A DNA stretch of 23,894 nucleotides from a virus: IMG/VR virus record IMGVR_UViG_3300042465_000182, positions 1 through 23,894 of that record; one strand, given 5' to 3'. A program made the position numbers and the translations under genes. Positions 13,498-20,919 of this stretch are shown here, piece by piece. Numbering within the stretch: the stretch's first letter is position 1; the number at the start of each line of letters is the position of its first letter. The notes beneath the pieces are model-generated. The model was not told the DNA's origin. It saw only the letters and a program-made list of their open reading frames with translations, and searched no databases.

Positions 13498-13860
13498 TTA
13501 TGCTAAGTATTTGAGTTTGTAGATGGTGCGAAGATAAATCTCAACAATGTTGTCAATAAGCTGTTGCAATGACGAATCTGTTTTGTCTGCAACCTTATAC
13601 CGAGCACCTTCGATTTCAGCCAACGAGCTTTCTAAAAACTCAATGATGTTGGAAGTCTTGGTTGCCGAATGCAAAGTGATGGGGCCAATCAAACCATGAC
13701 GGCCTTGGTAGGCTTCAGCAAAATCATCTGCCGCGCCAACAATGCGGTCATAGAAAATTTTAAGTGCTTCGTGCTTGCTGAAACTACGAGTATTTAAGTG
13801 AACGCTGTGCGTCACGTCCCGTGCTAGAAACAGTAAGCCTAAAAAATCAGCGGGTTTCAT
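13498..13860 (-). CDS. DUF5856-like helical phage protein
   Basis: The 120-residue protein is predicted almost entirely helical, with amphipathic helices suggesting a four-helix bundle somewhat like Dps/ferritin. Key patterns are 'MKPADFLGLLFLARDVTHSVHLNTRS' split at the N-terminus, 'FAEAYQGRHGLIG' (about 48-60), 'FLESSLAEIEG' and the ending YLRTIYKLKYLA. I associate these with the phage family DUF5856, whose function is unknown. Conserved-looking His (positions about 17, 21, 55) and Glu residues could bind metal, but this is speculation. The ATG overlaps the portal stop as ATGA, so it is translationally coupled to the portal. Confidence 0.7.
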   Translation of the reverse strand: MKPADFLGLLFLARDVTHSVHLNTRSFSKHEALKIFYDRIVGAADDFAEAYQGRHGLIGPITLHSATKTSNIIEFLESSLAEIEGARYKVADKTDSSLQQLIDNIVEIYLRTIYKLKYLA

Positions 13861-16278: not shown

Positions 16279-16533
16279 TCAACACTTCCATCTTTTAAGG
16301 GCTGCTTTGGCACGCTCGCCGTCTTTGGCGTTGGCCGCTACAGCGCCCATTCTTGCACAAAATGAAGCCTTGCGGCCTTCGTCTGCCTTGGTCTTCGGGT
16401 TTGGTGCTGGCGGTTTAAGGTTGGAGCCTGTCTCTCGGTTGTACTTTTCGCGCCCTTTGGCCGTCAAACCAGCACCTTTGGAAACGGGTAGTTTCTCACC
16501 TCGGCCAACGCTAAGAGATACGTTTTTTTTCAT
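16279..16533 (-). CDS. Small basic phage protein, DUF6321-like
   Basis: The 84-residue protein begins MKKNVSLSVGRGEK and contains 'KGAGLTAKGREKYNRETGSN', a Pro/Lys stretch, 'GRKASFCARMGAV' and a basic C-terminus ending RWKC. The central pattern matches my memory of the phage family DUF6321; function unknown. The ATG at 16533 overlaps the terL stop as ATGA, so I prefer it to the in-frame ATG at 16545. Two cysteines (in SFCAR and at the last residue) are notable. The charge suggests contact with DNA or RNA during packaging, but this is inference. Confidence 0.7.
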   Translation of the reverse strand: MKKNVSLSVGRGEKLPVSKGAGLTAKGREKYNRETGSNLKPPAPNPKTKADEGRKASFCARMGAVAANAKDGERAKAALKRWKC

Positions 16534-18053
16534 GCGCCCATCCAACCAGTTACCGCAGTGCCCTGCGCGTTAAAACGTGTGTGCGCTGGTTCTTTGTATT
16601 CTCTGTGCGCCACAGGAAAAGCAAACGTCACTGCGAGCGCATCAGCTGCATCTGGTGAAGCTAAACCTCTTGCTCGCATTTCTTTTTTGCCTTCCAAAAA
16701 TATCGTTCCTGAAGAATCTGGTTTCTTCGTTGGACCCGTAAAATCAGCTTTCAGCTGCCGATCTGTGGGAATACTAGCAGATTTTAACCAGTTACGCATG
16801 TCATTCCACATTTCTGCTCGCTTATTTCCAAATGCTTGCGAGTGCTTGGCCTTGTTCCCAAAATTCACACCTCGGACCTTGTACCTTTGCTCGGTCAGCC
16901 GGTCAAGTATTCCATAACCCAAACCACCTTCATCAATGACGGTTAAGGTTGGTTTGTATTCTTCAATGGCCTCAATCACCCTGCCCACAATTTCCATCGT
17001 ATCTTCGCCCTTGTAACGCTTGATGGCCACCAAGTCGCGGCCCTGGCGTACCACAATCACCGTCGAATCTGCACCACCGCGGGCGGGGTCAACTCCCAAA
17101 ATGATCGGTGCCGTCAAATCCTTGTACCTTGGCCTTTGCATGGCGTCATCCACAATCATTGGGCTGATAAATTGATCTTCACCGGCTGACGGGAACTCAC
17201 CATACACCTCGACCTTGGCTTGGGCTGAGTCCTCGCCATATTCAGCAATGATCTGCTCATAAACCGACTTATCGGTGTCTTCCACCGTCCTGGCATCCAC
17301 AATTTTGGACGTCCAAAAGTTGCGTTTGGCGTGAAAACACTCAAAAAAGTAGCCTTCATTGCGCCGTGGGTTGGAAAATGCAAACCAGTACCTGTCCGGC
17401 GTGTTTTCTGTAAAGAATCCAGCTCCAACTTCCCAAATCGGGTTGGGGATACCGCTAGATTCGTCAAATATCAGCATCATGCCGTCTTGGTTGTGCACAC
17501 CAGCGTAAGAATCGGGGTTCTCTGCACTCCAAAGCTTGCCCTCGCAGGCCCAGTAGCGGGTGCCTTTACGCAAATCGCGCTCGACAAGTTCAGTTAACCA
17601 CTGCGCGGGAACTAGCTTGGTGGCCGAGATCTCCCACCAGTGCGAGTTAATGAGCATGGCTGCCCATTTGGTCAACTCTGCCCATGTCACTGAGCGCAGC
17701 TGGTTCTCGCTGTTGGCGCTGACAACAACCGAGCCACCAATGCGGGTGGTAAGCATCCACAAAATCAACCAGGACACCAAAGCAGATTTGCCAATGCCTC
17801 GACCAGATGACACGGCCATGCGGATGGTGTCATAGTCAATCAAACCCTTTTGTTTTTTGATGTGCGCGGTAATGTCTCGCAACACTTCCCTCTGCCATTT
17901 GCGTGGGCCGGTGAACTTCTCCAGCGGCGTGTTCTTCTGGCCCCAGGGAAAGGCAAACAGCACAAAAGCTTCTGGATCATCAGCAATGGCCGGTGACCAA
18001 AGCTCCACCATCAGCTTTTGTTCTTCTTCAGACTTGTATATCGTGGTTTGCAT
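16530..18053 (-). CDS. terL: Terminase large subunit (packaging ATPase and nuclease)
   Basis: The 507-residue protein cuts the DNA concatemer and drives it through the portal. The ATPase domain shows a Walker A-like SSGRGIGKS (82-90), Walker B MMLIFDE (192-198) and the coupling motif FSNPRR (226-231). The RNase H-like nuclease domain shows Asp322 (GVDPARGG), Asp374 (VIDEGG) and Asp468/Asp471 (SPDAADAL), the usual three acidic positions. All key residues are present, so it should be active. It starts three bases after the 636-residue gene and is coupled by ATGA to the next gene. It is separated from terS by about 2.4 kb, which is unusual. Confidence 0.95.
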   Translation of the reverse strand: MQTTIYKSEEEQKLMVELWSPAIADDPEAFVLFAFPWGQKNTPLEKFTGPRKWQREVLRDITAHIKKQKGLIDYDTIRMAVSSGRGIGKSALVSWLILWMLTTRIGGSVVVSANSENQLRSVTWAELTKWAAMLINSHWWEISATKLVPAQWLTELVERDLRKGTRYWACEGKLWSAENPDSYAGVHNQDGMMLIFDESSGIPNPIWEVGAGFFTENTPDRYWFAFSNPRRNEGYFFECFHAKRNFWTSKIVDARTVEDTDKSVYEQIIAEYGEDSAQAKVEVYGEFPSAGEDQFISPMIVDDAMQRPRYKDLTAPIILGVDPARGGADSTVIVVRQGRDLVAIKRYKGEDTMEIVGRVIEAIEEYKPTLTVIDEGGLGYGILDRLTEQRYKVRGVNFGNKAKHSQAFGNKRAEMWNDMRNWLKSASIPTDRQLKADFTGPTKKPDSSGTIFLEGKKEMRARGLASPDAADALAVTFAFPVAHREYKEPAHTRFNAQGTAVTGWMGA

Positions 18054-18056
18054 TGA

Positions 18057-19967
18057 TTAAGGTGCAGCCAGGTAATTGGTCGGCTGCTCTGGCGCCGGTT
18101 GTGGCGCCAACATGTTCTTTGCAGCAATTGCACCACCAGCAAGACCGGCAGTACCAAGCATTGCAGCGGGAGTGGCGGCACCATAGTAAAGCTCTCGCCA
18201 ATCACCTTCCTTCATCACCGGCTTGGTGCCCGTATACCCTGCCTGCTTATGCGCGGCCAGCGCGTCGCGCATTTCTTGCCATGACTGCTTGGGCAACAAC
18301 CTGTAGTCTGGATGGGCAAACTCATGGGGCTCCAACCTCTGGCGGTAAACATCCCACTTGCGCCACTGCTCGGGGAACAACTCAATCGCTGGGTTTGCGC
18401 CCCTAGACTCATCAACGTAGTCAACCACTCTTTTGTAAAACGGGTTGAAGTCTTGCAGCTGCTTGGGCTCGAACGCCAATTTTTCGGGCGTGGCCACTCC
18501 AGGTATTTCATTCAATTCGCCAGTTTTGGTGCGGTACATCTTCGACAATGATGATCCACCAATCACGTCAATGGCAGCCTTCTCCACCTTCTTTGTCGGC
18601 ACTCCCAAAATAGCTTCTTTGGTTGGATCCACTCCCAACTTACCACCCATGCGAAGCCTGAATGCCTCTCCCACAATCGGGTCATCCAGCATCCTCTCAT
18701 ACGAGTGCCGGATCATGTGCAAATCAACAGCTGACGTATTCGCACGGTTCAAGTCCAACCAAGGCGTACCAAGCGACGCGGTCTTGGGACCCAAACCAGG
18801 CACCTGATTCATCACCCGCAGGGTAACGTCGCGCATAGTCTCACCAGGCGCAATTTGAAACATCTCAGGCTTATCCAAAATCAACTTGGCCAACATCGCC
18901 TGATTCTTCAAATCTGCCGTGCCCAGCACTCCCATGCCACCGCGGCCAGCTGCCTGCACTCCCGTCTGCCCCTGCGCCGTGACAGATAAACCAGGCTCGC
19001 CAACCCTACCGGCCAGCGCCTTCAACTCATCCATATTCGTCAACCTCAACCGCTGCGCCAAAAACTCATTGGGCGTCAACGGCGCATTAGGCGACAACTG
19101 GGCAAAACTCAACCGGTTAAACATGTCCACCTGATCCGGATTGGCCACCTCATGCGTCCTGATCAACTTCTGCATCAGCTTGTCATGCACGTCCTTTGGC
19201 AGCGCCGCGGGATCAATATTGTTGGCCTTCATCCAGAACATGTCCGGCACCGTGAACTTACCCTCCAAACCACCAGGTATCTTGATCTCTCTCTTGCTGG
19301 TCAAGTCAGTAATGCCAAGCGACTTGGGCTCGGTCACCGTCATATTCACCCCGTGCTTTTCGCCCCAAGCCTTCCACTCAGCCTCAGTTGCCTTCGCACC
19401 TGGCGTCGTTGGCGCCTCACCCTTCATCCTTGTGCGCGTCGATAACGCATCATCAATCACCGACTTAGGCACATACCCGTTAATCTTAAAAGCCGGATTG
19501 TTCAATATCGAATTCGCTATGTCCGGATTGCCCTTCAATAACTTTTTCACCTCGGACCTCGGCACCGCGCTACCAGTGACTTCACCAGTAAAAGCCAAGT
19601 CGGCCAGCTCCTTATCCTTGCTGCTTAATTTCTCATACTGCTCCGTAATTTCTTGCAGTTTTTTTGCCCCAGATTTAACCAACTTGGTCATGCCCATTGG
19701 CGCAAACGACATTGCGCCACCCATAGTCATGTCCGTCAATTCTTGAAACGCTGCCTGGTCAGTAATTTTGGCCGGATTCTTTTTGTCCCCAAATGCACGA
19801 TCATTCAATTCGCGCCAGCGTTGTTGGGATTGCTGCAAATTCTGTAAAGCACCACTCATTGATCGGCCAAGACCCTGCATCTGTTGCGTACGGTTTGGGT
19901 CTTGCATATAACCAAGCATTGAACCCAATATATTTTTACCCGTAGGCGCCAGTTTGTTTGTGGCCAT
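18057..19967 (-). CDS. Large uncharacterised phage protein with HhH-GPD-like signature
   Basis: The 636-residue protein has no named family that I recognise. An N-terminal Gln-rich helical part (about 15-55) resembles virion/ejection proteins. A segment at 389-417 reads VPGLGPKTAS, 17 residues, then VDLH, which mirrors the helix-hairpin-helix plus 'VDTH' signature of endonuclease III-type DNA glycosylases, including a Lys (395) and an Asp (415) at the catalytic-type positions. No iron-sulphur cysteine cluster is present. The C-terminus has a small-residue hydrophobic segment (about 595-615, PAAMLGTAGLAGGAIAAK). I chose ATG 19967, 94 codons inside a longer open frame, because GGGGG lies 5 bases upstream and the upstream part encodes GC-biased nonsense over the origin region. 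Confidence 0.7.
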   Translation of the reverse strand: MATNKLAPTGKNILGSMLGYMQDPNRTQQMQGLGRSMSGALQNLQQSQQRWRELNDRAFGDKKNPAKITDQAAFQELTDMTMGGAMSFAPMGMTKLVKSGAKKLQEITEQYEKLSSKDKELADLAFTGEVTGSAVPRSEVKKLLKGNPDIANSILNNPAFKINGYVPKSVIDDALSTRTRMKGEAPTTPGAKATEAEWKAWGEKHGVNMTVTEPKSLGITDLTSKREIKIPGGLEGKFTVPDMFWMKANNIDPAALPKDVHDKLMQKLIRTHEVANPDQVDMFNRLSFAQLSPNAPLTPNEFLAQRLRLTNMDELKALAGRVGEPGLSVTAQGQTGVQAAGRGGMGVLGTADLKNQAMLAKLILDKPEMFQIAPGETMRDVTLRVMNQVPGLGPKTASLGTPWLDLNRANTSAVDLHMIRHSYERMLDDPIVGEAFRLRMGGKLGVDPTKEAILGVPTKKVEKAAIDVIGGSSLSKMYRTKTGELNEIPGVATPEKLAFEPKQLQDFNPFYKRVVDYVDESRGANPAIELFPEQWRKWDVYRQRLEPHEFAHPDYRLLPKQSWQEMRDALAAHKQAGYTGTKPVMKEGDWRELYYGAATPAAMLGTAGLAGGAIAAKNMLAPQPAPEQPTNYLAAP

Positions 19968-20120: not shown

Positions 20121-20235
20121 CCGTTCTCGCGGTACTTTGCGCCGGACCCTCCCCCCCCCCGTCGGGCCAGCTGGCGGGCAGGCAGGGGCACCGGCGCCGG
20201 CCACGCGGCGGCGGGCCATAAGCCAGCGCAGGCGG
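20107..20235. other. GC-rich non-coding block with C10 run, candidate packaging (cos/pac) region
   Basis: The block is far richer in G+C than its neighbours and contains a run of ten C at 20151-20160, GGCGCCGGCC and GCGGCGGCGGG. It lies between terS and the packaging operon. Open frames through it have biased, Arg/Pro/Ala-rich translations and no ribosome binding site, so I read it as non-coding. Terminase recognition sites often lie close to terS; that is the only basis for the cos/pac suggestion. Confidence 0.3.
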
Positions 20236-20239
20236 GAAG

Positions 20240-20343
20240 TTATCCACAAGCTGAGAGCGTTATCAGGCCAAGGTTAGACACATTGGCCTGTGGATAAGTG
20301 CAATCTGTTTATTTGCTAAGCATATTCCTGTGAGTTATCCACA
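20240..20343. other. Candidate replication origin with three DnaA boxes
   Basis: The perfect 9-mer TTATCCACA occurs at 20240-20248 (+), 20289-20297 (-, as TGTGGATAA) and 20335-20343 (+). Between the first two, CAGGCCAA (20264-20271) and TTGGCCTG (20283-20290) form an 8-bp inverted repeat that runs into box 2. An AT-rich flank with a repeated TTATGTAAG-like motif extends to about 20410 and could be the unwinding element. Three exact copies in 104 bases are very unlikely by chance. The host initiator DnaA would bind here; the phage primase-helicase could then be loaded. Confidence 0.7.
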
Positions 20344-20442: not shown

Positions 20443-20919
20443 CTACTTTGGCTCTACGTCGGTAATGTCGTCCACCTTGGCCATACCAATTTGCACCCTG
20501 GCTTGCGCCTGCTCCAATGCTTGAATAACGCTGATCCGGTTATCGCTGACGCTGACGTCGAGCCGGTCACCATACGTGCGTGGCTTAAGCTTGCTGGCCA
20601 CCCACTTACGCGCATCAACCTGCAGGCGCTTCTGGTTCACCCAGGCGCTGACTGCGACGCCTTCTAAGTGGTCTGGGATGGGTTGATCGGCCAGCTCGAC
20701 TATTTCCTCTGCCAAACGGTCTGCTCGCTGCTCTACGGCCTTTTGATAGGCTTCTTTGAGCTTATCGTTGGCCTGCAGCATTCGCCAGGCGTGAACGTAG
20801 CTTGGCATACCAGGCTCGCGCAAGGCGCCAGACAAGCTAGCGCCGCTGCTGATCTTGTCCAAGATGCCAGGCCAAATGTCTTCGGTGTATTCGATCGGTC
20901 TGCCGCCCAAATTCTTCAT
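20443..20919 (-). CDS. terS: Terminase small subunit
   Basis: The 158-residue protein would bind the packaging site and pass DNA to the large subunit. The N-terminal 'GGRPIEYTEDIWPGILDKIS' (4-23) is a DNA-binding-domain opening common in small terminases, followed by 'SLSGALREPGMPSYVHAWRML' split over about 28-48 (a helix-turn-helix-like part). A long helix 'KLKEAYQKAVEQRADRLAEEI' follows. 'RLQVDARKWVASKLKPRTYGDR' split around about 98-119 ends the conserved part and is a pattern I know from this family. The ribosome binding site is weak (AAGGGC). It lies downstream of rusA and upstream of the putative origin. Confidence 0.85.
   Translation of the reverse strand: MKNLGGRPIEYTEDIWPGILDKISSGASLSGALREPGMPSYVHAWRMLQANDKLKEAYQKAVEQRADRLAEEIVELADQPIPDHLEGVAVSAWVNQKRLQVDARKWVASKLKPRTYGDRLDVSVSDNRISVIQALEQAQARVQIGMAKVDDITDVEPK

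Follow-up and report, generated by a model that had tools for sequence, protein, structure and literature searches.

Does the large protein encoded beside terL in this virus contig contain a DNA glycosylase domain, and what might such a domain do for a phage? An earlier note had pointed to an endonuclease III (EndoIII)-like HhH-GPD signature in an open reading frame of 636 residues, here called P0001. The window, that is, the whole stretch of DNA analysed, is a 23,894-base virus contig that may be a fragment.

Position and extent of the gene

The gene for P0001 lies between terS and terL, all three being on the minus strand, and a P22-type head module encoding portal, scaffold, coat and ejection-like proteins lies downstream of it.

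18057-19967, minus strand: P0001, whole open reading frame, 636 aa, ATG at 19967, open to the stop codon
16530-18053, minus strand: terL, directly downstream of P0001 (phrog_2, E 3e-45)
20443-20919, minus strand: terS, upstream of P0001 (phrog_1482, E 1.5e-33)

The coordinates and length given in the earlier note were confirmed, and the strand, which it had left unstated, was assigned; its placement of the gene beside terL was correct and is made more exact by the position between the two terminase genes. A longer reading from a TTG start (730 aa, from 20249) was rejected because the extension crosses the gap between terS and the P0001 gene with its run of G residues, and because the open frames of the nearest relatives begin only about 5-20 residues before MAT. 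The run consists of ten G residues (20151-20160, minus strand) and is a possible slippage site or a weak point of sequencing.

A 104-base segment of the same gap (20240-20343) holds three perfect copies of the DnaA box (TTATCCACA); none was found elsewhere in the window (0.14 expected), and at least one such box was present in the same gap of all 12 relatives checked. The cluster is a candidate replication origin.

Predicted fold of the core

AlphaFold2 was used to generate a long model with the family alignment (mean pLDDT 84.9, pTM 0.83) and a domain model of residues 245-562 (mean pLDDT 84.9, pTM 0.84), and both were compared with known structures by VIA-align. HhH-GPD glycosylases accounted for 50 of the 50 matches listed for each model. 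The best match of the domain model was OGG2 of M. jannaschii (3knt; Z 13.6, rmsd 3.3, 198/207 residues), followed by OGG2 of T. maritima (3n0u; Z 13.4 over 198 residues), to which the long model was aligned with Z 12.4 over 195 residues; a Z near 13 can be reached by chance for some all-helical models. After OGG2 came OGG1 (human OGG1 about 9), H. pylori MagIII and C. acetobutylicum Ogg at Z 8-9, and then EndoIII (1orp, Z about 7.4) and MutY (Z about 7). Sequence identity to OGG2 within the structural alignment was 13-14%, and the alignment ended at residue 304 of the domain model (P0001 residue 548), paired with OGG2 residue 207. Foldseek alone gave weak OGG matches for both models (E about 0.4-1), mixed with unrelated helical proteins.

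18324-19214, minus strand: HhH-GPD (OGG2-like) domain, residues 252-548, from the AlphaFold2 models and VIA-align
18777-18803, minus strand: VPGLGPKTA helix-hairpin-helix, residues 389-397, with K395 at 18783-18785
18717-18728, minus strand: VDLH, residues 414-417, with D415 at 18723-18725
19086-19127, minus strand: DMFNRLSFAQLSPN, residues 281-294, candidate equivalent of OGG2 FCILTAN and EndoIII LLSAQ in the DNA-intercalation region
18303-18377, minus strand: invariant C-terminal block LFPEQWRKWD..R.R.EPHE..HPD, residues about 531-555, from invariant alignment columns

At the motif, the domain model places a helix (134-144), the five-residue loop VPGLG with the hairpin glycines, and a second helix (150-160); D415 stands just before the helix at 172-176, as in the HhH-GPD family. 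The core of P0001 thus modelled very probably has the HhH-GPD fold. An unrelated predicted fold had been named in advance as evidence against the proposal, and HhH-GPD was found in both models. The HhH-GPD part of the assignment therefore stands, and its EndoIII part is replaced, since the nearest fold in these models is that of OGG2 (Z 13.6 vs about 7.4), EndoIII being farther. Of the domain boundaries first proposed (residues 250-440), the start was retained and the extent was too narrow: the modelled domain reaches from about 252 to 548, in addition to a conserved N-terminal extension from about residue 130.

Catalytic-type residues and profile comparisons

The translation of P0001 bore out the motif positions and the spacing of 20 residues between Lys395 and Asp415 reported earlier, as did the E. 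coli nth sequence (LPGVGRKTAN...VDTH) the spacing of 18 given for EndoIII. The spacing in M. jannaschii OGG2 is also 18, and hhalign placed a two-residue insertion in P0001 between Lys and Asp relative to OGG2. A loose HhH-GPD pattern matched P0001 once and matched none of 20,000 shuffled versions of it.

K395 and D415 were invariant in 55/55 non-redundant homologues, down to about 50% identity, and fall within the most conserved stretch of P0001 in this alignment; their loss among homologues was the other result that the earlier note had said would tell against it. The motif regular expression fitted 128 of 129 homologue copies, a set in which some contigs are counted twice, and in the sole exception K and D are both present and His alone is lost. 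Nucleotide comparisons among relatives gave dN/dS of 0.02-0.09, and the family is under strong purifying selection. The motif is accordingly not a product of chance, given the shuffling result, the retention of both residues in all relatives examined and the purifying selection.

In profile comparison with a mixed HhH-GPD alignment, hhalign gave a score of 33.9 (P 3e-4; best of 60 column shuffles 21.7), and the match fell exactly on the hairpin, pairing it with those of OGG2 and EndoIII. Another run against OGG2 (the M. jannaschii sequence, identical to PDB 3fhf) aligned K395 and D415 with the OGG2 Lys and the Asp of IIDRH, respectively (P 0.02); this Lys is the residue mutated to Gln in the DNA-bound structure 3knt. 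In comparison with OGG2, hhalign also paired DMFNRLSFAQLSPN, which is largely invariant among homologues, with EWFKELCFCILTAN, and the C-terminal block, as far as residue 548, falls inside the region that the structural alignment matches to the end of OGG2.

The Pfam HhH-GPD model PF00730 matched neither P0001 (E 10), nor any protein in the window, nor any of 38 family members (E 1), and it detected the HhH-GPD family in 14/14 control genomes, so that P0001 lies beyond the reach of that model. Pfam HHH gave a weak match in 14 of the 38 members. P0001 matched no family in Pfam and no model in NCBIfam, and nothing useful was obtained from the PHROGs scan, PDB sequence searches with P0001 alone or a PDB profile search. 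Because the HhH-GPD model misses the family, it is assigned, on its predicted fold and residues, to the superfamily and to neither OGG2 nor EndoIII within it. On the models, the view that it is a divergent, previously unannotated HhH-GPD branch of phages is well supported.

Relatives of P0001

Relatives were found in at least 84 IMG/VR contigs, and the core (about residues 108-600) is conserved across 72 IMG/VR loci. Translated-protein searches of deposited phages and plasmids yielded no homologue, nor did a GTDB genome scan with P0001, which used short exact patterns and could miss distant prophage copies. In the clade of the window the order terS, P0001 gene, terL, portal is conserved, and homologues usually lie within the terminase-portal block. 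More distant phages have the homologue either in the interval from terL to portal or immediately behind portal and a gene of the phrog_858 type; in one contig (L128) a tail-spike-like gene precedes it. The close phages DSL-LC05 and isolate ctNMl277 have no homologue, terL directly following the small-subunit gene. Since these two phages lack the gene and no deposited phage was matched, the gene is regarded as accessory, and an essential role in packaging is ruled out by the same two phages.

The window itself has a phrog_858 protein (13498-13860, minus strand) after the portal gene, and relatives of it are encoded directly before the P0001 homologue in the divergent contigs L118, L121, L122, L123, L125 and L126.

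Homologues range from about 600 to 1800 aa, with a variable N-terminal part. Four contigs (L005-L008) carry homologues 94-98% identical to P0001 only from about residue 87-102 onward, and by their sequences the differing N-terminal part is an exchange of N-terminal modules. Among the 13 long homologues (900-1800 aa), ART-PolyVal was detected in four, on the N- or C-terminal side of the glycosylase-fold domain; for the three matches visible over their whole length the score exceeded the curated cut-off. P0001 itself has one recognised domain only.

Comparison with known enzymes

P0001 resembles OGG2 (MjOgg, 3knt/3fhf; Tm1821, 3n0u) in predicted fold, in the K/D catalytic pair, in the hairpin and in having no Fe-S cluster. 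It contains no cysteine and therefore no 4Fe-4S cluster. It differs from OGG2 in the wider spacing (20, not 18), in carrying about 250 more residues before and about 90 after the aligned domain, and in being the product of a phage gene in a packaging block. To EndoIII (Nth), the likeness consists of the helix-hairpin-helix motif and the fold (Z 7.4 to 1orp); structural similarity is lower, P0001 lacks the Cys residues and 4Fe-4S cluster, and the spacing is again 20 vs 18.

OGG2 recognises 8-oxoguanine through its C-terminal Lys. The likeness of the models to OGG2 suggests oxidised purines as substrate; however, nothing at the chain end of P0001 corresponds to this Lys, the domain ending at about 548 of 636 residues and the protein in ...NYLAAP, and the LFPEQWRKWD block stands in the aligned region, so that a substrate other than 8-oxoguanine is quite possible. 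A search of the open literature, which was not exhaustive, found no phage-encoded 8-oxoguanine glycosylase of the P0001 kind.

Proposed function and rival explanations

P0001 is probably an active glycosylase and/or lyase, and, to go by the models, there is a reasonable likelihood that it is specifically an active glycosylase/AP lyase of the HhH-GPD fold. By analogy with the family, DNA would be gripped along its backbone by the hairpin together with the helices next to it, and a base would be flipped into the pocket; D415 would help to activate K395, which would attack C1' and release the base, and a Schiff base on K395 followed by beta-elimination would nick the strand. Base removal or nicking is thus predicted to depend on K395 and D415.

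The context of the gene suggests late expression, and the position in a late packaging block together with the ART-PolyVal fusions in relatives makes a virion-carried protein the most likely setting. On these two grounds a virion-borne role is plausible, and the chances that P0001 is delivered by the virion are put at about even. Polyvalent proteins have been described as injected with the DNA in terminase-portal phages (Iyer et al. 2017, PMC5512222); the main text of that paper contains neither the word glycosylase nor the term base excision. Some homologues of P0001 resemble these proteins in being fused to ART-PolyVal and in being encoded beside packaging genes in terminase-portal phages. 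Polyvalent proteins carry several unrelated enzymatic domains in one chain, as do the four long homologues with ART-PolyVal; P0001 itself shows no second recognised domain. In the setting taken as most likely, P0001 would be packaged in, or ejected from, the virion and would act at the start of infection, removing a damaged or modified base in the entering phage DNA or attacking host DNA. A bolder reading, for which we give a probability of roughly 0.35, is that virion-delivered polyvalent proteins include this glycosylase/AP lyase among their modules and that it is injected with the phage genome; the whole chain, from an active HhH-GPD enzyme to its carriage in the virion, has about the same probability. 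On the bolder reading the enzyme might mend the DNA that enters, damage host DNA or disable competing phages, or take out a base that marks DNA for defence.

A late-made enzyme that acts inside the cell like OGG2, cleaning 8-oxoguanine from phage DNA before packaging and not carried by the virion, would fit OGG2 as the closest fold and a gene adjoining terS and terL, which handle DNA during packaging. We consider it rather unlikely, as the large size, the variable N-terminal modules, the Gly/Ala-rich tails and the ART-PolyVal fusions would be unusual for a repair enzyme, and about 90 residues follow the domain here, whereas OGG2 reads 8-oxoguanine with its C-terminal Lys. It is also unlikely that the fold has been repurposed to bind DNA, for example in the packaging motor or in ejection, and does not cut the glycosidic bond: the position in the packaging block, the very divergent sequence and the general use of HhH hairpins as DNA-binding elements are consistent with this, but Lys and Asp, which binding alone would not need, are invariant in all relatives, and two close phages manage without the gene.

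Glycosylase folds have also been proposed for the pyrophosphorylases of phage thymine hypermodification, and P0001 might modify bases on such a fold instead of removing them. Phages carrying alpha-glutamyl/putrescinyl thymine pyrophosphorylases are known (PMC9599517), but the identification of P0001 with the known thymine-modification enzymes is unsupported, since it matches no Pfam family; no further gene for base modification was recognised in the window proteins that were scanned, which is a weak argument because the record may be a fragment. We regard the base-modification reading as very unlikely. It is scarcely credible, finally, that the motif arose by chance in a helical phage protein of unrelated origin: the weak Foldseek E-values and the level that Z can reach by chance for helical models would allow it, yet the shuffles gave no match, the motif is conserved among homologues, only HhH-GPD enzymes appear among the structural matches listed, and motif, secondary structure and fold agree. 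A simple helical bundle is likewise disfavoured by the hhalign column shuffles, the VIA-align matches and the sequence shuffles.

If the reading as an injected module is right, the family has a counterpart on the bacterial side. Bacterial DNA glycosylases are known anti-phage weapons, among them Brig1, which excises glucosyl-hmC from T4 DNA (PMC11078745). The parallel between Brig1 and P0001 is the putative use of a DNA glycosylase in phage-host conflict; Brig1 is a bacterial defence, whereas the P0001 gene belongs to a phage. The P0001 family would bring the same chemistry to the phage side, an injected glycosylase of this type being the phage counterpart of the bacterial enzymes, and a base-excision module would join the list of polyvalent-protein domains. 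A candidate function is thereby offered for an unannotated family present in over 80 environmental phage contigs.

Another protein near terL

A protein of 88 aa (16279-16545, minus strand) matches the C-terminal ends of much larger phage families of unknown function (phrog_10346, 438-525 of 525; phrog_3477, 859-928 of 928), and from these alignments it is taken to be a C-terminal tail domain that occurs here as a protein of its own.
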